Assembly: GCA_013306675.1 (NCBI GenBank)
Contig: JABLUY010000362.1
Span: forward strand, 1-26,970
Direction of reading: 5' to 3'
Source: Thraustochytrium sp. TN22
Taxonomy: Eukaryota; Sar; Bigyra; Thraustochytrida; Thraustochytriidae
Length of the DNA stretch: 26,970 nucleotides
How positions within the stretch are numbered: the first letter of the stretch is position 1; every line of letters starts with the position of its first letter. This document shows, piece by piece, positions 52 to 25,598 of the stretch. The position numbers and the translations under genes were made by a program. The notes below the pieces were generated by a model that made no database searches, was not told the DNA's origin, and was given only the letters and a program-made list of their open reading frames with translations.

Positions 52-1026
52 GTTGCGAGCTTGCCGCGCGGCGCTCCAGGCTGCCGCCGTCGCCGACGAG
101 CGCGCCGCGCGGAAGCGGCGGAAGCGCGCGAGAAGAGGACAGCGCGAGGCGGTGAGTAACTAGGCCTAGGCCTGGTGTGGTGTGGTAATACTTAGGTTAA
201 CTTACAGTTAGGCCAAGCCTGCTCCAAGTCGGCAAGTTACTCACCGTCAGCCTCGAGCGAGCTGTCACTGGCTCGAGCGAGTTCTGCTCTCTCTCAGAGC
301 TGAGTCAGCGACCTGGCAGCGGAGAGCTCAGCTCACATATCAGTGCTGGCGCCGGCACTGGCACTGGCACCGGCGCTGCGCGTCTTGTGCTCTGGCTTGA
401 GCTTGTAGGTCTCCACTCGTCGACCTTTTTACAGTTCACAGTCAAGTTAGGACTTCGGATTGATTGCTGACTCACAATGCTCGCACGTGCAGGCAGCCAG
501 CGGAGGCGTCGTCATCATGAGTCATGACCTCGACGCGGACGCGTGAAGAAGCCAGGAGAACCTTTGCGGCCGGCGCAAGGGCCGCAAGGCGTCAAGCGAG
601 ACTTGGCTTGGAGGAGAGCCTGAGAAGCAAGTGAAGTTGGAAACACGGCGCGGCGCGGCGCGGCAAGGAGGCGATACCTTCCCCCGCTTGAACGCTCTAG
701 TAAGCGGCCAGGTCGTTCGCCCTCGTGCTCGTGTCGCACGTCGCTGCACGTGGCCGCTTGGCTGGGCTCCGACCGTGCCGAGAGTCCTCCTGCACCCCCA
801 CCACGCGCGGCGGGGGCGGGGCGCAGCGAGGAGAGCCGCCCCGCGGAAGGGGGCTAGAGAAGGAAGCGGGGAAACCGGCGGAGCCAGTGCACGCGCCGGG
901 CGTGAAGGCCGGCTCGGCGCGGCTCGGCGGCGCTCGCTCGCGGGGCGGCGACGCGCAAAGCGGGATCGGGCGCGCGGCGGGCGGCGGGGCGCGGCGCGGG
1001 CGGGCGCGGGAGCGGCGCAGAGCGCC
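52..1026 (+). other. 5' flank and leader of the sorting-nexin gene
   Basis: No convincing gene is visible in this stretch. It is upstream DNA and probably transcribed leader for the PX gene that starts at 1027. A consensus splice donor (G then GTGAGTAA, intron start at 152) is followed by candidate acceptors ending at 207 (TTACAG) and 434 (pyrimidine run then ACAG), so a leader intron is possible. A 12-bp perfect inverted repeat pairs 150-161 with 235-246. Three short upstream ATG frames lie at 477-527, 517-546 and 524-634. They would matter only if the transcript begins upstream of them, and the transcription start cannot be seen. Another CGGCG pentanucleotide run lies near 645-664. Confidence 0.45.
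152..434 (+). other. possible 5'-leader intron
   Basis: The donor GTGAGTAAC at 152 is close to the eukaryotic consensus. The best acceptor by eye is the T-rich stretch ending in ACAG at 434. A shorter alternative ends at 207 after TTAACTTACAG and would give a 56-nt intron. No coding frame is affected, so only transcript data could decide. This is an inference from splice-site consensus alone. Confidence 0.22.
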
Positions 1027-4855: not shown

Positions 4856-6427
4856 TTAGAGCGTGAGCTCGGTAGGCTTGGGCGAATCAGGCTTGCCCTC
4901 GAACCAGTGAGCCTCGGCGAAGCCGTCCGGAAGGGCGGCGTAGCCGGTGAGCTCGAGGTTAAAGGGGCAAGGCGACGCGAGGTCGACGCGGAGCAGCTCC
5001 TTGGTGAAGGTGCCATCGAAGTTGGAGGTGTCGGCGTCGGTGGCGAGGGCCGGGATGAACTCGGGCTCGATCTCGAGCGCGTTGAGCTTGTCCCAGTCGA
5101 GGCCGTCGAAGAAGGGGTGCGCCATGACGTTGGCCGAGCCATCGTTACCGTAGCCGAGGCGGTCGCGCTCATCGTACTTGAGGAGAGCGGCGATAAAGTC
5201 GGTGGCGTCGGCGGAGATGGGCTTGAGCTTGGCCGGGGTGCGCGGGAACTGGAGGTCGCAGGCGAGGATCTTGTTGAGCATGGCCTTGCGCTCGCGCGAA
5301 TAAAAGGGCGGGACGCGGTAGAGCATCTCGTACATGAGGATGCCGAGCGCCCACCAGTCGACCGTCTTGCCGTAGGTGGCGTTGCGGTCGTTCTTCTTGG
5401 TGGTGGCGCAGAGGATGAGCTCTGGGGAGATGTACTCGGGCGTGCCGCAGATGGAGTAGCAGCGCATCGAGTTGTCATCGCCGTTCTTGTTGAACTGGAT
5501 CGAGAGGCCAAAGTCCGTGAGCCGGAGGTGGCCCTGGTGGTCCAAGAGCACGTTCTCGGGCTTGAGGTCGCGGTAGATGATGCCGTTCTCATGGAGGTGC
5601 GCGAGCGCCGATGTGATCTCGGCGACATAGACGCGCGTGCGCGACTCGGAGAAGACGCCCTGGCGCTGCATGTGCTGAAAGAGCTCGCCGCCGGGCGCGT
5701 ACTCGAGGAACATGAAGATCTTGTCGCGGTTCTGAAAGGAGCCGTGGAAGCTCGTGACGAACGGGTGCTCGCCGACGGTGTGCAGCACGAGGTTCTCCAT
5801 CTCGGCGTGCTCGACCTTGGTGGAGACGGGCCGCACGCCACGCGTGGCGCCGGGCTTATCGATGAGGTTGGCCTTGGCGACCTCCTTGACGGCCACGAGG
5901 CGGCCCGTCTTGCGGTGACGCATGAGCATGACCTTGCCGTAGCCGCCGCGGCCAATAACCGAGACCGCGCGCAGCGCGGCTGGATCCGCAGCGTCGCGGA
6001 ACCCGTTGCCGCCCTTGGTGGCCACGAGAATATCGAGGGCCGACTTCTTCGAGGCCGGCTGCGCGGCGCCGCCCGAGGCGCCCGTGCCGGCGCCGGCCTT
6101 GGCGAGCGCCTTCTTGGACCCGAAGACCATCCAGGTCATGACCTTGTTGAAGCGCGTGCTGCCGGAGCGGTTGCTCACGGCGCTGGCGCGCGACGAGGTG
6201 CTCGAGGTGGAGACGGCCGAATCGTTGGACACTGCGCGCGGGTTCCGCGCCGCGTTGGCGCCGGCGCTGGCGGGGCTCGACGCCGCCTGCGCCGCCCCGG
6301 CGCTGACGCCCATCAGCTCCTCCTCGCCGCCCTTGCCGCCCTCCTCGCCCTTGGCGCCGGCGTTGCTCCACACCGTCGACAGGTACGAGGTGCCCTCAGC
6401 AAACCACCCGGCCAGAACGCGCTCCAT
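4856..6427 (-). CDS. AGC-family Ser/Thr protein kinase
   Basis: The predicted 523-aa cytosolic kinase transfers phosphate from ATP to Ser/Thr. The first ~150 residues are Ala/Ser/Gly-rich and probably disordered. The kinase domain spans about 153-440: glycine loop G159-R-G-G-Y-G-K-V, ATP-anchoring K181 in VAVK, an E(H)AEMENL helix, catalytic Y285-R-D287-L-K-P-E-N292, metal-binding D305-F-G, activation loop C327-G-T329-P-E-Y, and S334-P-E. T329 is the expected PDK1-type phosphorylation site. An AGC-type C-terminal extension follows (FDGTFTKE at 470-477), but no clear FxxF(S/T)Y hydrophobic motif is seen at the end. The domain looks most like the S6K/Akt/PKA group; no finer assignment is safe. 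The ATG at 6427 is the first in frame, because the frame upstream to 6778 starts at a GTG and is Arg/Glu low-complexity sequence. All catalytic residues are intact. Confidence 0.93.
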   Translation of the reverse strand: MERVLAGWFAEGTSYLSTVWSNAGAKGEEGGKGGEEELMGVSAGAAQAASSPASAGANAARNPRAVSNDSAVSTSSTSSRASAVSNRSGSTRFNKVMTWMVFGSKKALAKAGAGTGASGGAAQPASKKSALDILVATKGGNGFRDAADPAALRAVSVIGRGGYGKVMLMRHRKTGRLVAVKEVAKANLIDKPGATRGVRPVSTKVEHAEMENLVLHTVGEHPFVTSFHGSFQNRDKIFMFLEYAPGGELFQHMQRQGVFSESRTRVYVAEITSALAHLHENGIIYRDLKPENVLLDHQGHLRLTDFGLSIQFNKNGDDNSMRCYSICGTPEYISPELILCATTKKNDRNATYGKTVDWWALGILMYEMLYRVPPFYSRERKAMLNKILACDLQFPRTPAKLKPISADATDFIAALLKYDERDRLGYGNDGSANVMAHPFFDGLDWDKLNALEIEPEFIPALATDADTSNFDGTFTKELLRVDLASPCPFNLELTGYAALPDGFAEAHWFEGKPDSPKPTELTL

Positions 6428-6779
6428 GATGCCCGGGGCTTTTGGCTCTTTTGCCTTCTGCCGCCGCGACGAGCCCCCGAGCTGGCGCACAAAGATGCGC
6501 CTGTGCCGGGCCCTGTCTTCCGGGTCTGTCTCGCGCGGCTTCTTCCGCGCGGCCGACTCTGGAGCCTGCCTGTCACTGGCCCGCCAGCCGGGGCTGGCCT
6601 CCTCTGTCCGCGGAGCGCCGAAGCACTCGGCGGCCAATCTCGTCGGCCCACGCGCCGGCTCCGGCCCCCGCTTCACTCGCTCGCTCCTGGGCTCCGCGCC
6701 TCGGCCCCCTTTTGTCTCTCTCGCTCGCTCTCGAGCCCGCTCTCGAGCTCGTTCCCCGTCTGTTTGTCTGGCTGCCACG

Positions 6780-10310: not shown

Positions 10311-10739
10311 CGGCATCACGCCGTGGCCAGGCCTGCACTGGCACGTTGAGACCGTTTCGCCTGCGCCTTGTCTCGAAACTCGACATGTGGTGAACCATCA
10401 TTTTCTACTCTCTTGATGCGGCGGTGACTCGGAGTGAAGGACCAGTAATGTAGCAACCAGATCCGCTTGGCGGAGTGAACCTTTTCGTGAGCTAGTGGAA
10501 GTTCCTGACGCGGTTGATCGCACGCGGCATCCGCCGTGGCCAAGGCCTGCACTGGCACGTTGAGACCGTTTCGCCTGCGCGTTGTCTCGAAACTCGACAT
10601 GTGGTGAACCATCATTTTCTACTCTCTTGATGCGGCGGTGACTCGGAGTGGAGGACCAGTAATGTAGCAACCAGATTCGCTTGGCGGAGTGAACCTTTTC
10701 GTGAGCTAGTGGAAGTTCCTGACGCGGTTGATCGCACGC
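10311..10739. repeat. tandem duplication, two copies of a ~214-bp unit
   Basis: Copy one (10321-10525) and copy two (10534-10739) are almost identical across about 205 bp, differing at a few single bases and one inserted A. Each copy is preceded by CGGCAT (10311 and 10525), giving a period of 214 bp. The array abuts the 3' side of the transposase relic on the minus strand, so it may be the element's terminal region or a later duplication. The near-identity suggests a recent event. No coding function is supported. Confidence 0.95.
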
Positions 10740-11950
10740 CCCACGTGGATGCGCTTGCGAGCATTGTTTTGCCTCGCTTCAAGTCAGCGCTTTCTGCCCC
10801 TTGGACTGCATGAGCGGTACATCGAGCTGCGCATCTTGATGTGCCAGCGGCTCGAACTTCAGCTTGGAGCTCCTGTCCGCCAGGATGGTCTGGTTTGGGT
10901 GCACGCATTCCCCGCGGTTGCCAGAGCGCTCCGTGAGCACAGGATCGGAGATCCTGCCCGGCTAGGTCTGGGAAGCCCAACCAAAGTTGCCGCATCAAGC
11001 ATATGAGCAGCGTCGCAGTGTCGCGCGATTCGTACGCGCTTAAGGTAGCAGCACTCCGCGCGAGGGGGTTATCGGGGACCCGAACCTCGAGCTCCGCCGC
11101 GCTGAGGAGCCAGCTGAGCATGGGGCTCCTGGACTTGATTTCGACATGCTCAGGGCAGGAAGCTTTCAGCATCTCCGGGTCAGGCGTCTTCAAGCCAAGG
11201 CTGAAGACCGTGTACAGCGTCTGGATCCCGAACTCGAAGTTGCGCGAGATCGTGCCCTGGCTCACGCCGAACAGCGATCCCATGAAGACCTGGCTCAAGC
11301 CCAGACGCAAGATCATCAGCGCAATGAGGAGGCGATCTTCGAGCCTGAGGGCAGCTGCGCGGCTACGACACGACGCGCTGCTGGAGGTGGACTTCGCCGT
11401 CCTTCTAGCGCTCACCTCCTGACACTCTGGAAGCGCCTGGCCCTCCTCAAAGCGCTTCCAGACGGCGATGCTTGCATCGCGCTGCAGGGTGTCGTCTCCA
11501 CCAGCGACGCGAACGAGCGAAACGATCGATTCAAAGCATGTGACACTCGACACCCCAGTATTGCCACCGGAATCGCGCCCTCGTGTTGGGCGCCGGCTTG
11601 GCTTGCGACATCGGCCGCAGCCGATTGAAGTATCGGTCTCGCGCATCCTCATCCAGCTTGCCAGACTCCGTCTCCGTGTGCACCGCGCGCCCCGACCGAC
11701 GAGGCCTTCTCCTGTACATTTTGCTCGTGCGGAAGACTCCTTCCTTCGCTTGGCACCATGGCATCTCGCACGTGCACTGCGACATCACTCCGGCAGGCCC
11801 TGCGACCTCGTCCGGGTTGGTTCCAGCTTTTGAGGTCCCCACGCAGATGCTTTGAGCGCCCGACATGTCATCCAGGGGCGGCTTGCGCAAGGGCATCCAA
11901 CCTAACGACCACCTTGGCCTGCGTAAGCTGAGTGAGAGCGCCAAGGCCAA
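10740..11950 (-). mobile_element. remnant of a DDE DNA transposon, boundaries approximate
   Basis: The transposase relic defines the core. The 214-bp tandem repeat directly borders it on its downstream side. Upstream on the minus strand, a separate frame (11950-11531) encodes a basic segment with a C-x-C-x4-C cluster and an R-Y-F-N-R-L run. This might be the eroded N-terminal zinc-finger region of the same transposase, but that is a guess. I could not identify terminal inverted repeats or a target-site duplication, so the ends are uncertain. Confidence 0.5.
10784..11652 (-). pseudogene. decayed DDE_Tnp_4-type transposase
   Basis: This is a relic of a cut-and-paste transposase of the HTH_Tnp_4/DDE_Tnp_4 kind, as found in ISL2EU-like elements. 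In the first frame (11652 downward) a helix-turn-helix segment lies at about 11349-11240 (LRLEDRLLIALMILRLGL, then LFGVSQGTISR). It is followed by the region that should hold the first catalytic Asp (about 11110-10993). There the usual D-A-T-E reads S-A-A-E, so the Asp is lost. The second half (about 10960-10786) is recognisable only in another frame, with P-G-R-I-S-D-P, T-E-R-S-G, I-L-A-D-R and S-K-G-Q. An in-frame stop sits just before it, where the second Asp is expected. A frameshift, a stop and lost catalytic residues make it non-functional. Confidence 0.72.
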
Positions 11951-12883: not shown

Positions 12884-12923
12884 ATGCCCGGACCGGCCCG
12901 GTCACCAGGCGGCGCGAAGTTGA
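12873..12923 (+). promoter_or_regulatory. upstream ORF overlapping the first VPS13 ATG
   Basis: An ATG in a strong context (CCATGG) opens a 16-codon frame. It overlaps the in-frame ATG at 12884 and stops at 12923, before the ATG at 12950. If transcribed, it could steer ribosomes to the downstream ATG at 12950, which is also the one that aligns with VPS13 N-termini. No transcript evidence is available. Confidence 0.3.
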
Positions 12924-15900
12924 CAGAACGCTTCGGCCCGCGCGGGAGGATGCTCGCGCGCGCGGTGGCGGAGCTGGCCGGGCGGTACCTGGAGGACGTG
13001 CGACCGGAGAGCGTCCGCGTGAGCTTTGCGGACGGCGGCGCCTGCGTGGTGCGGAATGGCGCCGTGCGGGCCTCGGCATGGGCGGGGCTCGGACTGCCGT
13101 TCCGCGTGGAGACCGCGCGCTTCGCGGAGCTGCACGTGCAGCTGGGCTGGAGCTGGCGCGGGCTTGAGACGGCCGCCAGCGTGCACGTGGATGGCCTGCA
13201 GCTCGAGCTACGGCCGTTTCGGGACGCCGCCGAGGCGCGTGACGCAGTGCTCGAGCGGAAGCGGGCCCTGGTGGCGCGCCGCGTGCGCGCCAGCGAGGCG
13301 GCGCAAGGCCAGGCCTCGCGCGACCGCCATGCCTGGGCTGCCGCCTTGCTCACGCGGGTGCTAGAAACCGCCTCGCTGCAGCTCACCAATCTCACCCTGC
13401 GCGTGCTCGAGCCGGATCCGGCGCCAGGTCTCATTCTGCGCGTCGCCGCCATCCGCCTGCGGTCCGCCCGCGACCATGCCAACTCTCCCTCTGGAACCAT
13501 GCCCGCCGCATCCTCGCCCGTAGCGGCGTCCGCGGATCCTGACGCGCCCGGCCTCGGGCTCGCCTTCGCCGGAGGCCCGGCGCTCGCGCACAAACTTGTC
13601 ACGGTCGAGGACCTCTCGCTCGCCGCCGACGACCGCCCCGACGTTGTCGTGCTGCGCCTCGCGCGCGCCGACGCTACTGTGCAGGTCGACGCCGCTGCGC
13701 CGCACCCTCGCACCGGCGCGCCCTCCGTCCTCGTTGACCTCGACTGCCCCGGCGACGGCCTCGACATGCCCAATCTCTCCGCCGACGTCCTCGAAGTTCT
13801 CGCGCGAACCGCCCGCCGCTGGCTCGCCTTCGCCGCCGAGGACCCGCCCGTGCCACCCGTAGACCCGGCGGCGCCCGACCTCACTGGACTCGCGCCGGCC
13901 GTGGCCGCGCGCCACCGTTGGCACGCCGCCATCCGCCACGTCCGCCGCCTCCTGCGCCGCCGTCGTCGGTGGCTTGCGCAGGACCCAGCCCACGTCGCCG
14001 CGAGGCAGGTGCAGCTCGAGGCGCTCGCGAACCTCCTGGCTACCTTCGACCGCGATTCGCCAGACGACATGCTCCGGCCCGATCCACGCATCGACAGCTT
14101 CGTCGCAGACTGCCCGGCCAGAGACCTTGTCCAGGCCTGCCTCCGCGCGCGCGCGTTGCGTCGCGACGGCCGCCTTTGCGCGCAGGGCTCGCCTTCCGCG
14201 GCGCCATCCGAGACCGCCGACAGGCCAGTCCTCGCGTCCTGGGCGTCCTGGCTTGTCGCGCTTCTACCCGACGAAGCGCACGAGCTCGGCCGAACCAACG
14301 ACCTGCCCGCCGACGGCCTCTCGGCGCCCTATCGCTTTGAGGTCTCCGCTACCGCCGCCCAGGTCTGCCTCGCCCTTGTAGACGACCACGGCTTCGCGCT
14401 GTGCGCTTTTTCAGGAAGCCCCTCCATCGTCCTGCGCGAGACCGCAGCCTCCACGCGCGTCACCGCAGCGGTCGACGACCCGCGCCTCCGCGTCAACGGC
14501 CGCGACCTCCTGCGACCAATTCCACAAACCGCGCCCGACGCCGACTTCTTCTTCGACGCTTCGCCGGACGACAACGACGCAGCAAATCAGGACGGCCTCG
14601 AGGAGGTCGACACGGATCACGAGGAAGACGAGGACGAGGACGAGTTCCACGATGCCGCCGAGGACCAAGACGCCCTCCTGCTCGTCGGCATTGCGCACTC
14701 CAAGTCCGACGAAATCCTCGCCAGCCACGCGCCCCTGCGCGTCATGTATAAACGCCAGACGAGTGAAGCAAGAGGAGACGCGGGCGGCGCGGACGACGCG
14801 CGCGCACCCGGCAGCGCCACCATCGTCGTGGAGCCCGTCGAGCTCGACTGGGACCCGCGCACCGTGCTTGCGCTCGCTGCCTTTGCGCAGACCGCGTCCG
14901 CCGCGCTCGACGGCGCCCACGCCGTCGGTACCGACCTCCTGCTACACTCGCTCCACGCAGACGCCAACTTCGACCTCCGCGTACGCTTCGGCGCGCCACG
15001 CATCCGCTTCGACGATGAAACCTGCCTCGCGCTTGGCTCGCTCGCCGTGGCGACCGCCCCGCTCAAGGACCAGGGCCGGCAACAGCAACAGCAACACTCG
15101 CAACAGCAGAGAGGCGGAGATTTTGAGGCTCGAGCCATCGACATTGCCTTCCACGGCACGCAGCTCTGGCGCAACGGGAGAACTGTGTTTGGCCCGCTGA
15201 ATCTCGACGGCGCGCTCCGCACAACACGGACCGCCCAGGACACCGCGGCCCCTTCAACGATGCGCGACCTCCACCTCCATCTCTCGACCACGAACGACCC
15301 CGTCAGCAACGCCGCTGGCAGCGACACTGCAGACGGCGCGGGCGCCGCTGCAGCGACGGCCACGGTCGAGATTCACGCCGCCAAGGTGCTCACCATCGAC
15401 GAGGACCTCTGCGCCTTTCTTGCCGTCGTTGCGCGCGATCTCGCCGCCGCCGACCCAGTCGAGGCAACCCCCGTGCGCAGACTTACCGCCTCCACCGCGG
15501 CCGCCGCCGCCGTCGCCGTCCCCGCTGCTGCGGCTGCTAGCCACAGCGTGCAGAATGGCATGACACAAGTGCGGCTCACTGCGGACGCGCTGCGTGTCGA
15601 TGTCCTCCACAAGCGCCGGCCCGTGCTGTACCTAGGTGTGGACGCCGTCCGCGCTGACCTCTCTCTTCTCGGGCTGCAGCGTCGGGATCTCGCGCGCGCC
15701 ACGGTGCGCCTTGACAGGCTCGTCTGTAGGCACCCCGATGGGCGCGCGCTGCTCGCGCACTGCTCCCCGCTCCTGGAGCTCGAGCCTAAGCGCGTCGCTC
15801 TCACGCTGCCGGACCGTGTCGCGCTCACTTGGGTGCCGCCAGCCATGGCCGACGCCTGGGCCACCCTGCAGCATCTCGGTGTCTCGGAACAGGACCTGCA

Positions 15901-18900
15901 CGAAGCCATGGCGTCCACGCTCGCCCAGTCCGTCGTAGCCTCTGTCTCCACGCGCGCCGCCGCCACCTCTTCCTCCTCCTCTGCCGGCGCTGCTGCCGCC
16001 GCGCTGCGAACCAGTTTCAAGCTCGCCATCCCATCCGGCGCCGCACTCACTCTCTTCAAGCGCTGGGACCCGCTCGCCAAGCTCGTCGTTGACAGCCTCA
16101 GCCTCGATGCGCGCCCTACCGACCGCCACGAGGCCTTCGCCGTCTCGAGTACGCTCGGCGCCTGCGTACTGCACAACCTGCGCGCCGACCCGGGCCCGCT
16201 ACGCGAGATCCTCTCTCTGCCCTCCGCGACCCTCGCTTACAAGTACCGCCACGGCCACGCGGCTGACCACGAGCTCAACATCGCGCTAGGCCCTGCCACC
16301 GCTGTCTTCTGGCAGCCCTTTTTCACGGAGTGGGTTGACTACGCCGCCACCGGCGTCTTCGACCTCTTTGCCCACTCCGCGTCAGATCGCGTTCTCGCCT
16401 CTTCGGCCGCCGACTGGGCGCGTGCAAGCATCACCCTCGGCGCCTGCTCGCTCCTCGTGCCGGCTGACGCCCGCGCCTCGCGGGCGCTCCGCGTGCGCCT
16501 GTGCGAGGTCTCTGTGAGCAACGAGCTCGATCGCGACGCCGGCCTCGACGTCTACAAGGTCTGCGCCTCCGGCCTGCGCGTCGAGTCGTCCTCGGGCGCC
16601 TCCATTCTCGAGCACCCAGACGTCACGCTCTTCTTCGACCGCCCGCTCGCCTCCGGCGACACGCTGCTGCGCGCCGACCTCGCCAACTTCCACTTTAACA
16701 TTCTCGAGGACTCCCTCGTCGACATCCTTGCCTGTGCGCGCGGCAACCTGCTCAACCAGACCAGTCTGCTCAACGCGCTGCTGCGCATCCGCGACGGCGA
16801 CCACGGCGCAATCCGCTATTGGCGCCACTGGATTGAGACCAAGTCCCGCCCGCAGCGCGCGCGCCTGCGCGCCACCTCCATCTCCGCGCGCCTCCTCAAG
16901 AGCATCGTCATCTCCGTCGACGCCTGCGAGGCAGCCACCTTCACTCGCTTCATCCCCGCCGTCTCCGCCTTTGCCTTCGAGAACGAGTACACTGTGCGCG
17001 GCCTCGAGGCTTCGGTCGCTGGGATCCCACTGCTGCGCTCCGTCGCGCGCATGGACGCCGCCGAGCTCTTGCTTGGCGACCGTCCTGCCGCCGTCACCAC
17101 CAACGAGTTCTCCCTGCGCCTGCACCATGACCCAGATCGCCGCACCTATCTCGCGAGCCTCGCGCTCGATCACTTTGCCCTCTTGCTCGGGCCCGAGCCC
17201 TTCGACCTCGCGCTCTTGCGCCACCTGCACCACATTGTTCTCCGCGAGGCCGCAACGCCGCCGGCGCAAGGCCGCCACCACCACCGCAACAACAATGACA
17301 ACAAGCACCACGATGCCGACGCGCCCGCGCTTGCGCTTGCGCCCGCGGTTGAGCCAGCGCTTTCGCAGCACCAGGAGGTGCAGCTCGAGCTTGAGGTCAA
17401 CGGCGCTCGCCTTGGCCTGGTCGATCCAGACGGGAACCGCTTCGACCTCGGCCTTGGCGCCATCGGCAACGCGCTCACGACCACCGTGCTGAATGGCGAG
17501 CACTCCCGCATGGACCAAGGCACGCTGCACCTCGAACTTAGCGCGGCCCTTTCGGACGGCCAGGCCATTGAGCTCAATGCGGGACAAGAGCTCAACGCGC
17601 ACGCCTCGATGGGCGACAGCAGAAGCACCAAGGGCAGCTGCAACGGCAACGACCCCAACAGCAGCACGCACGAAAGCTACGGCGGCAAGATCAACAACCC
17701 CATGGCCATGACCATGACAGCGAGCATGCTCGCGGCAACTATGGACGACGAAAACGACGAGAACGAGGACATGGCTGGCGACAAGGGCCGTAACGTGCCA
17801 TGGCTTTTGCGTCCCTGCTCGATCGAAGTTCTCTGGGACATGATTGAGAAGTCCGCCGCCACCGATACCGTCACACAGCAGGTGCGCCTGCAGCTCACAT
17901 CGCCCGTGCGCTGCGAGCTTTCGCCGGGCCAGGCTGTCGCGGGCGCGGCGCTGCTCCCCGCCCTTGCTCAGCTCGCCTCGGCTCTGAGTGCCCCGGCGTC
18001 AGACGCGGCTGCCGACGACGACCTAATCCGCAGGTCCTTCGCCACCCCTGATTCGGCTACAGACGGCATTCGCTTCGAGATCGAGTTTCTTCGCGCCCCG
18101 CTCGGCCTCAAGCTTGGGCCGGTAGATACCCCGGTCCCGGGTGGCTCCGTGCTCGAGGTGCGCGGCTACGCCAAGCAGTGCGAGGAGTCTGTCACGCTGC
18201 AAATCGCGCCAGGCGACCAGCTCGTCAGCGTGAATGACCAGGACATCACGGCGTTGCCGCTCGAGGACGCCAAGGCCGTGCTCCGCGACGCAGCATGGCC
18301 GCGACGCATCCTCTTTTTTCGTCCGGACGCCGTGCGCGCGCGCATCGTGGATCCGCTGCTCTTCTCGCCGCTCAACACCGCCATCTGGGCTTGCCGCAAC
18401 TGCAGATCGGCCCAGCCCGTCACCAAGCGCGACCAGAACGAGGCCTTCCAGGAGCGCTGTCTTCGCTGCGGCGCCGCGCATATTCAGCTTGCCGCCGACC
18501 GAGAGGGCGACGCGTTGGGCGCCGGCCGCAGCCACCGCGCCGGCGGCGCCGGCGGCGCTGGCGGCATCGGCAGCGACGAGGACGAGGACGTGGACGCTGA
18601 GGGCGCCATCGTGCAAGACGAAGTCTTCGAGAACCAACGCTTTTATCTGCTCGTCGGGTGGTCGCCGCAACTCCTGCCCACCGATCCCTACCCGTGGAGC
18701 GACCTCGCCGGCCTCGCGCCGCGCCAGCTCGACGCGCATGCCCCGCTCCCGAAGAGCTCTGTACCGGGGGCCAAGTGGTACTGGGTCGACGACTGGACCG
18801 TCGACGACACGCGCTGCCGAGGAGGCACCAGCGACGGCGGCTGGACCTACGCGCGGGAGTTTGGGCGCTTCCGCCGGAGTCATCGCCCTCCCCGAGGCAA

Positions 18901-21900
18901 GCCCAAGCGTACCGACTGCGTTCGCCAGCGCCGCTGGGTGCGCCGCCGCGTCCTGTCCAAGGCCCCCATCCAGCGCCTCCACACCGAGTCGCCCGCGATC
19001 TCCGCATCAACGGCCGCCGCCCCGCCGCCCCCACCGGTGGAGCCGCTGCCCGCTAGCGCCACGATCGAAGCGAGCGACGATTCTCTCAAGGTGCCGCCCA
19101 CCGCGCCTGCGCCGTCCGCGGCGGCGACGCAGTACTCCTTTCTTGTTGACACCAATCAGTACGAGGTGTCGCTGCTCATGGAGAGCGACGCCGTGCACGG
19201 CCCCCTGATCAGGCTGCGGGCCGGTCTGCGCAATCCACTCGTTCCTACGTCTTGGGCGCGCGCGCTGGTCTTCCTCGGCGTGGACAGCAAGCAAGCTGCG
19301 CTCGACTCCGTCGCGGCCCGACTCCTGCCCCGCCGCCTCGCAGGTAATTTGTGCGTCACTGCTGAGGCCTTCAACGCGGCTCTGCTGGACTGGGAGCCCA
19401 TTGTCGAGCCCTGGGCGCTCGCTTTCGAGGCGCAGCACGAAGCGTCCTGGACACTTACGCTCATGGGCCTCTCCCGCCTCAACATCAACGTCGGGCTCTC
19501 CATCGCCGATGCACTCGCGCACATGCGCACGTGGGGCCCGCTCGCGCCGCGACAGCGAGGTCGTGCTGGCCCCGCGACGCCGCCGCCTGCGCGCGCGCCT
19601 CTGCTCGCGCTCCGCAACCTCAGTGGCGTCCCTATCACCGCAAGCCCCGCCGCGTGGCCCGCCACGGAGGTCGACCTGGACCCGGGTACGACCATCTCGG
19701 CCGTGCAGCTCCTGGGCAGCACCACCGCCGCCTTTGATCTCTGGCACGGCTCCAGTGCGCAGCAGGCGCAGCAAATGCAGCAACAACAGCAGGTACACCA
19801 GCAGCAGCAGCAGCCGCAGCCGCAGCAGCAGCCGCAGCAGCCGCAGCAGCCGCAGCAGCCGCAGCAGCCGCAGCCGCAGCAGCCGCAGCCGCAACAACAG
19901 CCGGCCAGCGGCGGCGGCGGCGGCTTCGCGGGCACTGGAGACGGCGCGCATAACCAGGACGCCATATCGCTCACTTTCTTCGGTGGCTGGCAGCCGCTGC
20001 GCGGCCTGTCATTGCGACAGCTCATGCATGATGGTGAGATCGTTGCACACACTCTGGTCCAGGAGCAGCAGAGCTCCTCGACGGGGACCGTTCTCCTGCG
20101 GGTCCAGGTGGGCAGCGCCGGGGAGCGCGTCGTGCACGTGGAGTCGAGCATACACGTCGCCAACGAGTGCGACTTTGCGCTCTCGCTGCGCCTCGAGGAC
20201 CCGGGCGCGCTTGGCACGCTCATGGTGGACCCATGCGAGCCGTACGGCGCGGCGCAGCTGCCTCTCGTCAAGAACCTTGAATTGCGCATGCTCCTGCTCG
20301 GCGTGCTGGGCGAAACAACGCGCTCCGGCTTTGTGCTAAACCTCGCGCAGCTGTCCAGCAGCGCCCTGAAGATCGCGCGCGCCAACCTGGCACGCGCCGT
20401 CTCGCCCCCTGGCGTCCCGCTGGAGGAGTCGCTCACCGAACTCGCGCCCGGCCGGTACGTGCTCGTTGGCGTGCATGCCGAGGCCGTCAAGGAGGGCCGT
20501 GCCCGTCACGGGGCGCAGACGCGCAAATACGCGGCCTGCAAGCTCACCATCTCGGCGCGGCCTCCGCGCACTGTGTGCAACGCGCTCAAGATTGCCATCG
20601 AGGTCAGGGCTGAGCCCAACCCGGCGATCGTGCACGAGGTCGCCGTGGGCGGCACGGTGCCCCTCTACCACCTGGACGAGGTGGCGCTGAGCTTTCGTCT
20701 TGCTTCTGTGGCGGACGCGTGGTCCGCCTGGGTCAAGTCGGCTGACCTCGCGGCGCGCGGCGGCGCCTCGGTGCGCATCCAGGACTGCCACGGCCGTGCC
20801 GTCAACGTGCCGATCTCCTTTCGCGGGCGCTGCATCACGGTTGGCCCTGCCGTTTGCGTGCAGGACCACACCTGGGGGCTCGGTCTGCAGGTTGGCCTGG
20901 TCCCGACGCCGGGCGGCAAGCCGTGCGCCTCGCCTGGCCAGGCCGTGACGGACTCCATTTCTGTCGCCGAGTACCAGCGCTGGCTCCCGCTGCAGGGCTG
21001 GAAGCCGCCTACACTTCCCGGGGATCCCAGCGCTTGGGCCTACCACCCGGAGATGAGAGCGCCTGCCACGGAGCTCGCGGAGGTGCCCTTGGAGCCGGGG
21101 TGGACTTGGGCCGAACCGGAGTGGCGCTGCGACACGAGTGGGCACGACTGGGAGTATGCCACGGACTTTCAAGCCGAATCGTGGTCCCTGGACCGCGGTC
21201 GCCTCGACTGCGTGCGCCGGCGCCTGTGGCGCCGCACCTGCGTCCGCGACGCCTCCGCCGACCTCGTGCTGCTGGGCGCTGACGCCCGCTCCACGTCGGC
21301 GCACTCCCGGTCAGGCGGCGACGGCGGCGACCGGGTGACGGAGTCCGATGGCGGCTCGGGTGCTGACACGGTCCTGCAGCTCACGCTGCGTCTCTCTGGC
21401 CAGACCGAATGGAGCGAGCCCGTGACGCTCACGCCGGGCACCTGGACGCCTGTCGACGTCGTTGACGCGCTCTCCAGCACGGCCATCTCGCTGGTCGTAC
21501 AGACGCCTCTCCTCGTGGATCGCGAGCCCGTAGTGGTGTGGAACCAGTACGTGCTCTCCAACACGGTGACGGGCGACATCATCTTCGTGGCCCCGTGTTC
21601 TGCGGACGTGGGCGCAGACGAGGTGCCCACGACGGACAAGGTGACGAAGATTCAGACGGGTGAGACGCTACGGCGCTTTCACTGGGACCGGGCCGCGCGC
21701 GGCCGCCTCCTGCGCGTGGGCCGCACGGTTCGCACGAGCCTCGGCGCCCCGCGCATGGTGTGGAGCGGGCCAGTGGACCCCAACATGCTGGACGATGTGG
21801 TGCTCATGCTGCGTGAGCCGGACGGCGCCGCCCGCGCGCTGGTGCACGCGTCCATCCGCGAGGATGCGGTCTCGCGCTCCGTGCAGATTGTCTTCGGTGA

Positions 21901-24196
21901 CACTCTGCGCGGGTCGGCGCAGGCGCCGTACCGTGTGGAGAACCGCACGCTGCTGCCTATCGAGTGCAGCCAGCTGTGCAAGTACGCGCGCAAGTTGCCC
22001 CCGCTGGTCGTCAAGGACCGGCGTGTGTGCTTCTTTGGGCTCGAGTCCGCCACCGAGGACGCGCAAGGTGCCCGCCTGCAGATTCGCGCTACGACGGAGG
22101 AAGGCACGCAAGTGGCGGCGGTTGTGAGCCTGCTGGGCGACGTCAACGCGGAGCAGCGCGACCTTGAGCCGGTGCGTACTGCGGAGAGCCGCATCGTGGT
22201 GCGCGTGTTTGCGGAGGGCGCGACGCGCGTGATTTGCGTGGCGCATGCCTGGGCCGTCGTGGAGGCGCCGCCGTACGTCGACGAGCAGGTGGCGCTGCGC
22301 GCGCGCTGCGAGCTGCAGGGCGGCGTGTCCGTCTCGCTGGTCGGCGTGCATCGCGAGTTGCTTGCGGTGCACGCGGAGGGCCTCAGCGTGGCGGGCGCTG
22401 TCACGGACACGCTCCGCACGGTGGACGCCGAACTCGCTTCGCTGCAGGTCGACGACGCCGACCCGGACACGCGCGTGCCGGTCATGCTCCGCCAGGGCCC
22501 GGCTCGCGTGAGCCTCGCTACGTACGCGCGCCTGCCGCGGCGCGTCAAGCTGCTCTCGCTGCGGCTCGCGCCGCTCGCGCTGCACCTAGCCAAACAGCAG
22601 ATCCGCGCGCTCTCGCGGTTCTACGAGCTGCTTGGCGCGCGCGTGGCTCGCGCCTCGCGCGGCCCCGCGTCGCGGCCTCAACGGGACCACCACGGCCTGA
22701 AGAGCAACAGGGGCGTCGGCAGCAGTGGCGGCGTCGGCGGCGGCATCGGCGGCGGCGGCGGCTCCAGCGGCGGCGGGCCGATCTCCTTCGACCTCCTTCA
22801 CGTGTATCGCTTGCACGCTCGTGTGAGCCTGACTTCGTCGGCCACGACGCGGTCGCTGCCATTGGGTGAGCTCATGCGCCGTCGCGCCGGCTCGGACACG
22901 CCAGCTCGCGGGCCAGGGGGCTCCGCAGCAGCCGCCGTGGCCTCCGTCTCGGCACTCGAGGTGGTGGGCGCCGCCATCGCGCGCGTCACGGATCTCGACG
23001 AGGTGCAGCTGCCGTACTGGGCGGTGGCGCTGGGCCACCTTTTGCGCAGCGACCTGCGCGACCACGACGTGCGGTGCGCGGAGCTTGTGCTGCAGCACAC
23101 CACCATTTACGACCTCGAAACGTCCGCGGTGGCGCAGCATTACATTGCGCAAATGGCCAAGGCGCTCGCGAGCACCGCGCTGGTGGGCTCGGGACTCATT
23201 CGCGCACCGCTGCACCTTGCGCGCCAGCTGTCCATGGGCGTCTCCGGCGTGCTGGCGCGCGGCCCACGCTCCAGCCTCGAGGAGGGCGCCTCAGGTCTCG
23301 TGGCGGGCACCGCCATGGTCTCCGAGTCGGTCTTTCGCGGCTTGGCGCGGGGCCTCGCCACCATGTCGCTCAGCGATGAGTACATCCGGCGCCGCCAGGA
23401 CCGCGAGGAGCGCATGCGCGGCGCCACGGCGCCGCCGGGCCTGCGCCAGGCGCTCAACGAGGGCGCGCTCATCGTGCGCAACAGCGTCTCGGAGGGAGTC
23501 GTCGGTCTCCTCGCGGAGCCAGTACAGGGAGCCCGCGACTACGGACCGATGGGCTTTCTGGGCGGCATCGGCAAGGGCGTCGTGGGCGTCGCCATAAAGC
23601 CCGTCATGGGCGTGCTAGATGCCGCCACGGTTGCTACGCAGTCGGTGCGCCCGCAGGCGGCCCAGGTTCCGGCGGCAGCACTCTCGGGCCACGAGGCCGC
23701 CGAGGACACGCAGGCGCAGTCGCTCGCGGACGCCGCGCTCGCCCTTGGCACACGCCGCCGCCGCCCGCGCGCGCTCTACGGGCTCGGGCTGCGCATCGCG
23801 CCGTACAGCGACGAGGATGCTCGCGCCGTGCAGCTCCTGCGGGCGCTGCAGCGCGGCAAGTTCACCGACGAGGTCTTCTTCGGCCGCTTCCAGCCTTCGC
23901 GCGAGGACCTCGAGTACATTATTACGGACCGCCGCATTCTCTGCGCGCGGGTCGACGCCCAGGACCCGGCCGCAGTCGCCGACGCGGACCGCGCCAGCGC
24001 CTGCGTGCAGTGGACGGTCGACTTTGCCAATGTCCAGGCTATTGCCGTCACGCGCGACCCGGCCAGCGGCGTGCACGTGCGCTTCCGAGCACTCGACCAG
24101 GAGACCGCCTCACGCTTCGTGCCAGCGCCCTTGGATCAGGCCTACGGCTTCGCCGGACTCTTGCATGCCGCGCAGCGCACGCCGGTTGCAGGCTAG
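12884..24196 (+). CDS. VPS13-family bridge-like lipid transfer protein with PDZ, zinc-ribbon and two DysF domains
   Basis: This single uninterrupted 3770-codon frame encodes a rod-like protein expected to channel phospholipids between membranes at contact sites. The chorein N-terminus fits from Met23 (12950), so that may be the true start; numbering here is from 12884. The order is: chorein ~23-125; beta-groove (RBG) region to ~1700, with two FFAT-like motifs (core F-F-D-A at 556-559 and E-F-H-D-A-A-E at 587-593) in acidic surroundings; PDZ-like domain ~1727-1815 (P1739-L-G-L-K-L loop); zinc ribbon C1837-x2-C1840-x18-C1859-x2-C1862; DysF ~1915-2025; VAB region ~2240-3120, interrupted by a Gln/Pro tract (~2291-2341) and a second DysF (~2697-2789); VPS13_C/APT1 region from ~3125, with a Gly-rich loop (~3278-3298); ATG2_C-like helices ~3416-3586; and a PH-like end ~3632-3756. 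Canonical VPS13s lack the PDZ, ribbon and DysF modules. Confidence 0.96.
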   Translation: MPGPARSPGGAKLTERFGPRGRMLARAVAELAGRYLEDVRPESVRVSFADGGACVVRNGAVRASAWAGLGLPFRVETARFAELHVQLGWSWRGLETAASVHVDGLQLELRPFRDAAEARDAVLERKRALVARRVRASEAAQGQASRDRHAWAAALLTRVLETASLQLTNLTLRVLEPDPAPGLILRVAAIRLRSARDHANSPSGTMPAASSPVAASADPDAPGLGLAFAGGPALAHKLVTVEDLSLAADDRPDVVVLRLARADATVQVDAAAPHPRTGAPSVLVDLDCPGDGLDMPNLSADVLEVLARTARRWLAFAAEDPPVPPVDPAAPDLTGLAPAVAARHRWHAAIRHVRRLLRRRRRWLAQDPAHVAARQVQLEALANLLATFDRDSPDDMLRPDPRIDSFVADCPARDLVQACLRARALRRDGRLCAQGSPSAAPSETADRPVLASWASWLVALLPDEAHELGRTNDLPADGLSAPYRFEVSATAAQVCLALVDDHGFALCAFSGSPSIVLRETAASTRVTAAVDDPRLRVNGRDLLRPIPQTAPDADFFFDASPDDNDAANQDGLEEVDTDHEEDEDEDEFHDAAEDQDALLLVGIAHSKSDEILASHAPLRVMYKRQTSEARGDAGGADDARAPGSATIVVEPVELDWDPRTVLALAAFAQTASAALDGAHAVGTDLLLHSLHADANFDLRVRFGAPRIRFDDETCLALGSLAVATAPLKDQGRQQQQQHSQQQRGGDFEARAIDIAFHGTQLWRNGRTVFGPLNLDGALRTTRTAQDTAAPSTMRDLHLHLSTTNDPVSNAAGSDTADGAGAAAATATVEIHAAKVLTIDEDLCAFLAVVARDLAAADPVEATPVRRLTASTAAAAAVAVPAAAAASHSVQNGMTQVRLTADALRVDVLHKRRPVLYLGVDAVRADLSLLGLQRRDLARATVRLDRLVCRHPDGRALLAHCSPLLELEPKRVALTLPDRVALTWVPPAMADAWATLQHLGVSEQDLHEAMASTLAQSVVASVSTRAAATSSSSSAGAAAAALRTSFKLAIPSGAALTLFKRWDPLAKLVVDSLSLDARPTDRHEAFAVSSTLGACVLHNLRADPGPLREILSLPSATLAYKYRHGHAADHELNIALGPATAVFWQPFFTEWVDYAATGVFDLFAHSASDRVLASSAADWARASITLGACSLLVPADARASRALRVRLCEVSVSNELDRDAGLDVYKVCASGLRVESSSGASILEHPDVTLFFDRPLASGDTLLRADLANFHFNILEDSLVDILACARGNLLNQTSLLNALLRIRDGDHGAIRYWRHWIETKSRPQRARLRATSISARLLKSIVISVDACEAATFTRFIPAVSAFAFENEYTVRGLEASVAGIPLLRSVARMDAAELLLGDRPAAVTTNEFSLRLHHDPDRRTYLASLALDHFALLLGPEPFDLALLRHLHHIVLREAATPPAQGRHHHRNNNDNKHHDADAPALALAPAVEPALSQHQEVQLELEVNGARLGLVDPDGNRFDLGLGAIGNALTTTVLNGEHSRMDQGTLHLELSAALSDGQAIELNAGQELNAHASMGDSRSTKGSCNGNDPNSSTHESYGGKINNPMAMTMTASMLAATMDDENDENEDMAGDKGRNVPWLLRPCSIEVLWDMIEKSAATDTVTQQVRLQLTSPVRCELSPGQAVAGAALLPALAQLASALSAPASDAAADDDLIRRSFATPDSATDGIRFEIEFLRAPLGLKLGPVDTPVPGGSVLEVRGYAKQCEESVTLQIAPGDQLVSVNDQDITALPLEDAKAVLRDAAWPRRILFFRPDAVRARIVDPLLFSPLNTAIWACRNCRSAQPVTKRDQNEAFQERCLRCGAAHIQLAADREGDALGAGRSHRAGGAGGAGGIGSDEDEDVDAEGAIVQDEVFENQRFYLLVGWSPQLLPTDPYPWSDLAGLAPRQLDAHAPLPKSSVPGAKWYWVDDWTVDDTRCRGGTSDGGWTYAREFGRFRRSHRPPRGKPKRTDCVRQRRWVRRRVLSKAPIQRLHTESPAISASTAAAPPPPPVEPLPASATIEASDDSLKVPPTAPAPSAAATQYSFLVDTNQYEVSLLMESDAVHGPLIRLRAGLRNPLVPTSWARALVFLGVDSKQAALDSVAARLLPRRLAGNLCVTAEAFNAALLDWEPIVEPWALAFEAQHEASWTLTLMGLSRLNINVGLSIADALAHMRTWGPLAPRQRGRAGPATPPPARAPLLALRNLSGVPITASPAAWPATEVDLDPGTTISAVQLLGSTTAAFDLWHGSSAQQAQQMQQQQQVHQQQQQPQPQQQPQQPQQPQQPQQPQPQQPQPQQQPASGGGGGFAGTGDGAHNQDAISLTFFGGWQPLRGLSLRQLMHDGEIVAHTLVQEQQSSSTGTVLLRVQVGSAGERVVHVESSIHVANECDFALSLRLEDPGALGTLMVDPCEPYGAAQLPLVKNLELRMLLLGVLGETTRSGFVLNLAQLSSSALKIARANLARAVSPPGVPLEESLTELAPGRYVLVGVHAEAVKEGRARHGAQTRKYAACKLTISARPPRTVCNALKIAIEVRAEPNPAIVHEVAVGGTVPLYHLDEVALSFRLASVADAWSAWVKSADLAARGGASVRIQDCHGRAVNVPISFRGRCITVGPAVCVQDHTWGLGLQVGLVPTPGGKPCASPGQAVTDSISVAEYQRWLPLQGWKPPTLPGDPSAWAYHPEMRAPATELAEVPLEPGWTWAEPEWRCDTSGHDWEYATDFQAESWSLDRGRLDCVRRRLWRRTCVRDASADLVLLGADARSTSAHSRSGGDGGDRVTESDGGSGADTVLQLTLRLSGQTEWSEPVTLTPGTWTPVDVVDALSSTAISLVVQTPLLVDREPVVVWNQYVLSNTVTGDIIFVAPCSADVGADEVPTTDKVTKIQTGETLRRFHWDRAARGRLLRVGRTVRTSLGAPRMVWSGPVDPNMLDDVVLMLREPDGAARALVHASIREDAVSRSVQIVFGDTLRGSAQAPYRVENRTLLPIECSQLCKYARKLPPLVVKDRRVCFFGLESATEDAQGARLQIRATTEEGTQVAAVVSLLGDVNAEQRDLEPVRTAESRIVVRVFAEGATRVICVAHAWAVVEAPPYVDEQVALRARCELQGGVSVSLVGVHRELLAVHAEGLSVAGAVTDTLRTVDAELASLQVDDADPDTRVPVMLRQGPARVSLATYARLPRRVKLLSLRLAPLALHLAKQQIRALSRFYELLGARVARASRGPASRPQRDHHGLKSNRGVGSSGGVGGGIGGGGGSSGGGPISFDLLHVYRLHARVSLTSSATTRSLPLGELMRRRAGSDTPARGPGGSAAAAVASVSALEVVGAAIARVTDLDEVQLPYWAVALGHLLRSDLRDHDVRCAELVLQHTTIYDLETSAVAQHYIAQMAKALASTALVGSGLIRAPLHLARQLSMGVSGVLARGPRSSLEEGASGLVAGTAMVSESVFRGLARGLATMSLSDEYIRRRQDREERMRGATAPPGLRQALNEGALIVRNSVSEGVVGLLAEPVQGARDYGPMGFLGGIGKGVVGVAIKPVMGVLDAATVATQSVRPQAAQVPAAALSGHEAAEDTQAQSLADAALALGTRRRRPRALYGLGLRIAPYSDEDARAVQLLRALQRGKFTDEVFFGRFQPSREDLEYIITDRRILCARVDAQDPAAVADADRASACVQWTVDFANVQAIAVTRDPASGVHVRFRALDQETASRFVPAPLDQAYGFAGLLHAAQRTPVAG
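19755..19905 (+). repeat. CAG/CCG repeat encoding a Gln/Pro tract in VPS13
   Basis: About 50 codons of CAG, CAA and CCG encode poly-Gln followed by Gln-Gln-Pro and Gln-Pro repeats, then five Gly. The tract sits in a loop near the start of the VAB region, so length variation might be tolerated. Smaller Gln-rich and His/Asn-rich runs occur near 15073-15110 and 17275-17310. Confidence 0.92.
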
Positions 24197-24890: not shown

Positions 24891-25598
24891 ATGGCGGCGC
24901 GGCGGCCTGCGCAGTCTCGCTGGGCCGATCTGGGCCCGCGGGTCGGCGTGCTCGTGGCGCTCGTGGTGGGCGTGCTGCTGCCCATCGCGAGGTGGCCGCG
25001 CGCGTGCACGCTCGTGTCCCAGGCGGCGACGGCCGCGGCGGTGCTGGAGTGGCTGCTGGGCGCCTGGAGGTCGCCGCCCGCCGCCGCGCTGGCCGCCGGC
25101 TCCGGCTCGCTGCAGGACGGCCTGCGCGTGGCGGCCTCGCTCGTCCTCCTCACGCTCTGGGCCGCCGTGACCATGCCCGTGCTGCGCGAGCGCATCGAGG
25201 GCGCCTGCCCGGGCCACTGGCGAACAATCGAGATCATCCTCGTGGTCATGCTGGTGTCGGACTCGGCGCAGCTCGCGTGCGGACGCACCTTTGGTCGCAT
25301 CAAGGCGCTGCCCTGGCTGTCTCCGAACAAGTCCGTCGAGGGCTACCTGGGCGGTCTGGCGATCACGCTTGCCTACGCGGCGCTCGTTCATGGGTGGCCG
25401 TGGCACCTCACCGTTGTGGCCTTTTCCGCCGGCGTCGTGGGCGACCTTGGGTTCTCGCTTGGCAAGCGCCTCCTGGGCATCAAGGACTTCTCCAGCCTGC
25501 TCGGTCCGCACGGGGGCGTGTGCGACCGCATTGACTCCTTTCTCGTTGCCTGGGCTGCTGTCACCTGGTATGACTGCCCTGCCCTTGAAGTGAAGTAA
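24891..25598 (+). CDS. CdsA-type phosphatidate cytidylyltransferase (CDP-diacylglycerol synthase)
   Basis: The enzyme makes CDP-diacylglycerol from phosphatidate and CTP, the branch-point precursor of phosphatidylinositol, phosphatidylglycerol and cardiolipin. The predicted 235-aa protein is very hydrophobic, with about six membrane segments (near 16-33, 41-57, 79-97, 114-131, 153-170, 172-189). The family signature runs from S189 to D215: S-L-G-K-R, K198-D199, H207-G-G and D212-R-I-D. It matches the known pattern except for G191 in place of a hydrophobic residue. An upstream D124-S-A and S144-P-N-K-S-V-E-G-Y-L-G-G are also typical. The ATG at 24891 has a good context (GCAGCATGG). At 235 residues it is shorter than the roughly 270-285 of bacterial CdsA, losing N-terminal membrane segments rather than the catalytic end. 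It resembles the bacterial/organellar type; location in ER, mitochondrion or plastid cannot be decided. Confidence 0.88.
   Translation: MAARRPAQSRWADLGPRVGVLVALVVGVLLPIARWPRACTLVSQAATAAAVLEWLLGAWRSPPAAALAAGSGSLQDGLRVAASLVLLTLWAAVTMPVLRERIEGACPGHWRTIEIILVVMLVSDSAQLACGRTFGRIKALPWLSPNKSVEGYLGGLAITLAYAALVHGWPWHLTVVAFSAGVVGDLGFSLGKRLLGIKDFSSLLGPHGGVCDRIDSFLVAWAAVTWYDCPALEVK

Follow-up and report, generated by a model that had tools for sequence, protein, structure and literature searches.

What directs VPS13 bridges to the correct membrane is still under investigation, and the role of the DysF (dysferlin) domain beside yeast Vps13 remains a guess in PMC8891532. A locus of Thraustochytrium sp. TN22 bears on this question. 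Our window, the whole of contig JABLUY010000362.1 (C291; 26,970 nucleotides) from a scanned genome of 37.9 Mb in 453 contigs, carries a VPS13-family gene within which an initial annotation had reported a PDZ domain, a zinc ribbon and a DysF domain in one block (18062-18961), proposed to recruit lipid transfer to a specific organelle. Are these domains real, and what could they do within a bridge? As judged from its predicted domains, the protein is of a known kind, a VPS13 bridge; what appears to be new is that DysF (twice), PDZ and a putative ribbon are built into the same chain.

The block lies in a single intact frame on the forward strand (+), running from an ATG at 12884 to a stop ending at 24196 (3,770 amino acids (aa); all features of the protein are given below in window coordinates on this strand), and its 300 codons encode the PDZ domain, a C-x2-C-x18-C-x2-C ribbon and the DysF domain, as had been claimed. 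The profile search suggested as a check bore out the DysF domain (DysF1; aa 1911-2023, 18614-18952): the DysF end of the Pfam Pex24p profile (profile positions 235-358) matched aa 1898-2020 with 50.3 bits when the block was scanned alone, and the same family reached 58.8 bits over two stretches of the whole protein (E=6.2 × 10−16), both above the cut-off of 26.8. In sequence searches of the PDB the whole protein matched the TECPR1 DysF domain (E=1.5 × 10−12), and DysF1, 40% identical to TECPR1 DysF in an alignment, matched its structure 8p5p (E=5.6 × 10−14). Over 11 positions of the dysferlin fold stack (F954, W965, K983, C988, W992, W1012, W1027, R1038, R1040, W1042 and R1046; PMC3898210), DysF1 is identical at 8, a second domain described below (DysF2) at 7 and TECPR1 at 6; by this alignment DysF1 retains most of the DysF fold core. 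Furthermore, DysF1 has a net charge of +8, where the values for five further DysF domains range from −4 to +1, and a tip loop (18860-18913) with 8 Lys/Arg and no acidic residue among 18, which suggests anionic-lipid binding. The place of the TECPR1 residue Trp154 is taken by Arg in both DysF1 and DysF2; taken together, this Arg, the basic loop and the charge favour an anionic lipid over sphingomyelin as the ligand of DysF1.

The PDZ domain (aa 1727-1812; 18062-18319), with P-L-G-L as its GLGF-type loop, scored 23.8 bits against Pfam when scanned alone, marginally above the cut-off of 23.2, and had a single-sequence PDB match at E=0.053 only. A profile built from it and a PDZ-like stretch of the VPS13 on C420 retrieved 68 PDB sequences at E≤1 (best 8.4 × 10−4), covering most of the length of the PDZ structures retrieved; among the best 60 of these 68, we take all except 8yeq_A to be PDZ-bearing proteins. 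AlphaFold modelling, also suggested as a check, was of no use for the block as a whole (predicted confidence, pLDDT, 37.5) and gave weak agreement for the PDZ alone: the single-sequence model (pLDDT 57.2) drew 698 Foldseek matches at E≤10, with PDZ named in 47 of the best 50 titles and the other three presumably PDZ-bearing proteins too, and with a best E of 0.012 at a template-modelling (TM) score of about 0.3. Next in the chain stands the putative zinc ribbon (aa 1835-1866; 18386-18481), whose four cysteines (1837, 1840, 1859 and 1862) form the sole two CxxC knuckles of the whole protein, a pair within 40 residues that arose in 12 of 5,000 shuffles. Pfam ribbon families matched here below their cut-offs throughout, and a RanBP2-type zinc finger, suggested by W-x-C-x2-C, was set aside for want of Pfam support. 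Within the genome this ribbon was seen only in the window protein, where a Gly/acidic low-complexity linker (18482-18613) separates it from DysF1.

The remainder of the chain identifies the protein as a VPS13-type bridge-like lipid transfer protein, for which lipid transfer along the groove is predicted. Pfam found VPS13_C at the C-terminus (23759-24058; E=2.5 × 10−6, with 27.8 bits in the whole protein and 32.1 bits as a fragment; cut-off 21), together with sub-threshold PDZ and VPS13_VAB. The whole-protein PDB search yielded five matches at E≤0.1: besides TECPR1, human VPS13A (9yg5_B, 2.2 × 10−15) and VPS13C (9yqp_B, 2.2 × 10−13) matched aa 3399-3592 near the C-terminus (23078-23659), a region we call ATG2-C-like because of its place, while the remaining two, both on a Gln-rich tract, are probably chance matches. 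At the N-terminus, Pfam VPS13_N found no match, although a profile that we built on the N-termini of six further VPS13s from this genome recognized a chorein-like start (aa 23-122; 12950-13249) with 24.5 bits, against a top score of 4.1 among 200 shuffles; accordingly, we class the protein as a divergent VPS13. A groove-like segment with the motif WEPIVEPW (aa 2085-2219; 19136-19540) scored 26.4 bits to a profile built on its counterparts in four more VPS13s of the genome (top of 200 shuffles, 3.8), a test that is partly circular because the four segments were selected by the WEP motif itself, which is present in five of nine VPS13 frames. We take motifs of this type to lie in the groove just ahead of the VAB region, which agrees with the order in these proteins. 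The VAB region (19595-21973) has a start judged by eye, contains a Gln/Pro-rich tract (19760-19918), and is matched in its last part (21545-21973) by VPS13_VAB at E=0.019 in the whole protein and 4.7 × 10−4 as a fragment, both below the cut-off; it is collinear with the VAB region of a paralogue on C132. An FFAT-like motif, F-FFDA-SP (14546-14566), is a possible anchor to VAP proteins of the endoplasmic reticulum (ER); FFDA and YFDA resemble the VAP-binding FFAT motif, and since FFDA (aa 556, window position 14549) appeared in 408 of 20,000 shuffles, the motif is suggestive only.

The block had been placed between groove and VAB; this was slightly off, for the groove-like segment follows the block, and a loop inserted into the bridge is thus the better description of it. 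The initial annotation also missed the second, weaker DysF2 (aa 2690-2788; 20951-21247), found sub-threshold by Pfam within the VAB region at a place collinear with a DysF domain of the C132 paralogue. A search of the genome with VPS13_VAB gave scores above cut-off on seven other contigs (C399, C167, C132, C401, C222, C420 and C119), and VPS13_N added C107, which was left out of the DysF scan. Scanning the seven loci and the window, eight in all (nine frames), with a DysF profile (top of 200 shuffles, 2.4 bits) placed DysF in two of the eight, the window and C132, whose scores are high by construction because the profile was built partly from them; the other six loci had no DysF above the inclusion threshold in the same scan. 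C132 encodes a more canonical VPS13 (VPS13_N, 5.5 × 10−39; VAB, 7.2 × 10−15), with its DysF immediately ahead of position 361 of the VAB profile and PDB matches to TECPR1 (2.1 × 10−11) and dysferlin (7.4 × 10−7). Window aa 2551-2788 align collinearly with the VAB stretch and the DysF of C132 (BLASTP, 29% over 242 residues, E=1.2 × 10−8; 32% identity in an alignment of the 238-aa window stretch). DysF within VAB is thus common to two paralogues, and the DysF of the block is an extra copy.

VPS13s elsewhere in the genome carry PH, C2 and PX domains. The C420 locus (225464-241376) holds its VPS13 on two overlapping frames (3,239 and 2,175 aa; an intron or a frameshift), with a sub-threshold PH, a C2 domain, the PDZ-like stretch (PDZ_6, 13.0 bits) and a C-terminal PX domain, and the VPS13 on C167 has a sub-threshold C-terminal PDZ_6. 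A VPS13-like protein on C119 (22911-36461) combines EF-hands with two C2 domains and could form a calcium-regulated bridge. FFAT-like motifs also occur in C420 (FFDA, frame aa 1233) and C401 (YFDA, frame aa 1269).

Our preferred reading, to which we give a probability of roughly 0.55, is that the protein is a VPS13-type bridge with built-in membrane-recruitment and regulatory domains, doing in cis what yeast Vps13 obtains in trans from its DysF partners, for instance Spo73 (with Spo71) or Pex23/24. The parts of this reading seen in the sequence are the VPS13 regions described above, PDZ, putative ribbon and DysF1 ahead of the last pre-VAB groove-like segment, and DysF2 in VAB; the mechanism as a whole, including ER docking, lipid contact and switching, we infer. 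The N-terminal end would dock on the ER, as suggested by the FFAT-like motif and by three MSP-family (VAP-type) matches in the genome. The basic tip of DysF1 would touch anionic lipid near the acceptor end, most likely phosphatidic acid, the PDZ would hold a membrane protein by its C-terminal tail, and DysF2 with VAB would bind a second partner; together, DysF1, PDZ and DysF2 would position the groove at a growing, anionic membrane and perhaps activate it there. DysF2 itself may bind a protein or another lipid. Precedents for such lipid contact come from the DysF domains of Pex30, Pex31 and dysferlin, which bind liposomes with 40% phosphatidic acid (PMC12101078; for Pex30 also PMC12101077), and from Spo73, in which basic loop residues are required for location at the prospore membrane (PMC4863634). 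Spo71-Spo73 is regarded as a Vps13 adaptor complex (PMC8372973), and in Hansenula Vps13 cooperates with the DysF proteins Pex23 and Pex24, a helping role of DysF being offered there as a guess (PMC8891532). We also count in favour of this reading that DysF recurs at the collinear place in C132 and stands alongside membrane or lipid domains in two further proteins of the genome, a DysF-PH-VASt protein (C65) and one with a sub-threshold SNARE match (C34).

A number of observations weigh against the preferred reading. Four IMG/VR scans returned no homologue from another species, and the evidence comes from one genome. The PDZ score sits at the cut-off and falls below it in longer pieces (17.4 bits in the whole protein, 21.5 in the block and 22.4 in 164 aa), and as single-sequence queries PDZ and ribbon found no other VPS13 of the genome above the inclusion threshold, so that the kinship of the PDZ with C420 depends on the by-eye alignment and the profile result. 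The VAB region by itself is below the Pfam cut-off, the structure models of the block and of the PDZ are poor, and FFDA is a 2% chance event. DysF2 scored 24.0 bits when scanned alone, below the cut-off of 26.8, had no PDB match at E≤0.1 as a single sequence, and carries a net charge of −4; in an eight-sequence DysF tree with supports of 44-82 it is not paired with DysF1, which may or may not have arisen by duplication of DysF2. On the lipid side, the assignment is drawn from charge, similarly basic 18-residue windows occur around aa 343-366 of the same protein, and the phosphatidic-acid binding of Pex30 has been ascribed to hydrophobic regions (PMC12101077). Finally, Spo73 needs neither Spo71 nor Vps13 to arrive at the prospore membrane (PMC4863634), so the link to yeast may be indirect.

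Among the alternatives, the one that fares best is that the block serves solely as a protein-binding scaffold, in which PDZ and DysF bind proteins, the ribbon braces the insert and DysF stays off lipid. PDZ domains are classically peptide binders, and DysF2 sits in VAB, an adaptor-binding region; for the DysF of dysferlin, furthermore, an extension of the sheet by other proteins has been proposed (PMC3898210). Set against this are the unusually basic tip of DysF1 and the membrane binding of the DysF domains of Pex30, Pex31, dysferlin and TECPR1 (PMC12101078, PMC10476172, PMC12101077), and we regard a pure scaffold as an unlikely but serious competitor.

The initial annotation had named peroxisomes or lipid droplets as examples of the organelle that the block might serve, and a specific targeting to either is a second alternative. 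Pex23-family DysF proteins work at ER-peroxisome and ER-droplet contacts (PMC8891532, PMC8172628, PMC12101077), and the droplet example is compatible with the action of Pex30 at ER-lipid droplet contacts (PMC12101077). However, the Pex23 family of DysF peroxins is reported as fungi-specific and ER-located (PMC8172628), of the Pex24p profile the DysF end alone is matched in the window protein, and DysF proteins act at several membranes (PMC12101078, PMC8372973, PMC10476172). Recruitment stands as the likeliest use of the block; its direction to peroxisomes finds no specific support, and a targeting specific to peroxisomes or droplets seems improbable.

We consider it more doubtful still that the protein is a TECPR1-like damage sensor, whose DysF would detect sphingomyelin on broken endolysosomes and bring repair lipid. 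TECPR1 is the best structural match of DysF1; of 12 residues at which mutation abolished TECPR1 recruitment (PMC10476172), four are identical in DysF1 and five in DysF2, within an uncertain loop alignment; and human VPS13C moves to damaged lysosomes (PMC12081312). Yet the essential W154 is replaced by Arg, and C84, L89 and I142 are altered, in both window domains; Trp occupies the W154 place in just one of the four aligned DysF domains of the genome, the one in C132, and the sphingomyelin binding of TECPR1 DysF is not common to the other mammalian DysF domains (PMC10476172). Last, an assembly or gene-model artefact fusing unrelated coding pieces in one frame, to which the single genome and a Gly-rich linker able to conceal an in-frame intron would lend themselves, is highly improbable given 3,770 codons without a stop, a third-position G+C content nearly equal in block and frame (0.843 versus 0.842), a groove-like segment that carries on in frame past the block, and a paralogue on a different contig (C132) that likewise has DysF in VAB. 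Over the block, the opposite strand is likewise stop-free for 900 bases (18062-18961), as is frequent in GC-rich DNA.

Further DysF proteins of the genome include the C65 protein (L014:5143-8199), which joins DysF to a StAR-related lipid-transfer-type domain, and DysF-like domains on C34 (L042:782-2905, − strand; 34.6 bits) and on C188 (L043:2150-4498; 24.7 bits, with no Pfam match over the stretch of frame examined). The last two rule out the notion that every DysF of the genome sits in a lipid-transfer protein. C246 has a weak DysF match (E=0.29) with an internal stop, and C450 a ferlin-like FerI match. Because the genome Pfam search missed the DysF domains of C65, C34 and C188, all DysF counts are lower bounds. 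In the window, the VPS13 gene is followed by a frame in the same orientation (24891-25598, +) that matches CTP_transf_1 (9.3 × 10−27) and, with 60.7 bits against a cut-off of 385, the NCBIfam phosphatidate cytidylyltransferase; this class consumes phosphatidic acid, the lipid bound by the Pex30 DysF, a tie to the VPS13 gene that is most likely a coincidence. The other neighbours are a PX protein that also has an SH3 match under the cut-off (631-3588, +), a protein kinase (4859-6778, −) and, upstream of the VPS13 gene, a transposase-type HTH_Tnp_4 frame (10615-11652, −). Elsewhere, C124 (26703-41142) carries a PfaA-type polyunsaturated fatty acid (PUFA) synthase in a 3,044-aa frame beside a divergent 2,083-aa frame. 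Such a pair is typical of thraustochytrids and suggests that the genome belongs to one.

A natural fusion is classic evidence that its parts work together, here DysF with VPS13, and it offers single-protein constructs for testing the two. To judge by its PUFA synthase, the host probably belongs to the oil-rich marine protists that serve for omega-3 production; moving lipid in bulk is important in such cells. We tentatively extend the preferred reading to a wider proposal, in which DysF would be a general partner module of VPS13 bridges and the window protein the labyrinthulomycete cis counterpart of Spo73/Pex23: DysF within VAB would be old, in at least two paralogues, one of which would have gained a basic DysF, a PDZ and a ribbon that act as a lipid-sensing switch where membranes grow. 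The literature matches listed contain no printed VPS13 with PDZ or DysF; they leave InterPro and a plant and protist survey (Leterme 2023) uncovered. The terms 'dysferlin' and 'PDZ' are absent from the main texts of Levine 2022 (PMC7613979) and of a 2025 bridge-protein review (PMC12066543), as are 'DysF' and 'PDZ' from a 2026 paper on Toxoplasma VPS13 (PMC13298984). Excerpts of four papers (PMC4863634, PMC8372973, PMC8891532 and PMC12101078) place VPS13 and the dysferlin domain on separate proteins, and the DysF holders named in the excerpt of a 2010 ferlin study are ferlins, a human beta-propeller gene and yeast Pex30-type proteins (PMC2923515).

Compared with known systems, the window protein shares with VPS13A/C-type proteins (yeast Vps13, human VPS13A/C) the chorein-like start, a groove-like segment, a VPS13A/C-like stretch and VPS13_C, along with a probable VAB region. 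The accessory domains described for VPS13 in the excerpt of PMC7613979 (UBA, lectin, WWE, beta-sandwich, PH, C2, beta-tripod, beta-helix and alpha bundles) do not include DysF or PDZ, whereas the window protein has both. With Spo73/Spo71 it has in common the pairing of DysF with VPS13 and, in Spo73, an important basic surface loop; Spo73 is a separate DysF-only protein, whereas the window VPS13 itself carries DysF twice. The Pex23/Pex30 family shares the DysF domain and cooperates with Vps13 in Hansenula, but its members are fungal membrane proteins with transmembrane parts, while the window protein matches the DysF part only (profile positions 235-358 and 252-358) and not the N-terminal membrane part of Pex24p. 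TECPR1 provides the closest solved DysF to DysF1 but has tectonin repeats, none of which were found in the whole-protein Pfam scan, and a PH domain, and its sphingomyelin-binding Trp is the one exchanged for Arg. Dysferlin and myoferlin share most of the named DysF stack positions; in these proteins, however, one DysF is nested in another among C2 domains and there is no groove, whereas the Pfam scan of the whole window protein found no C2 domain and its two DysF domains are separate, each set into a predicted lipid-transfer bridge.

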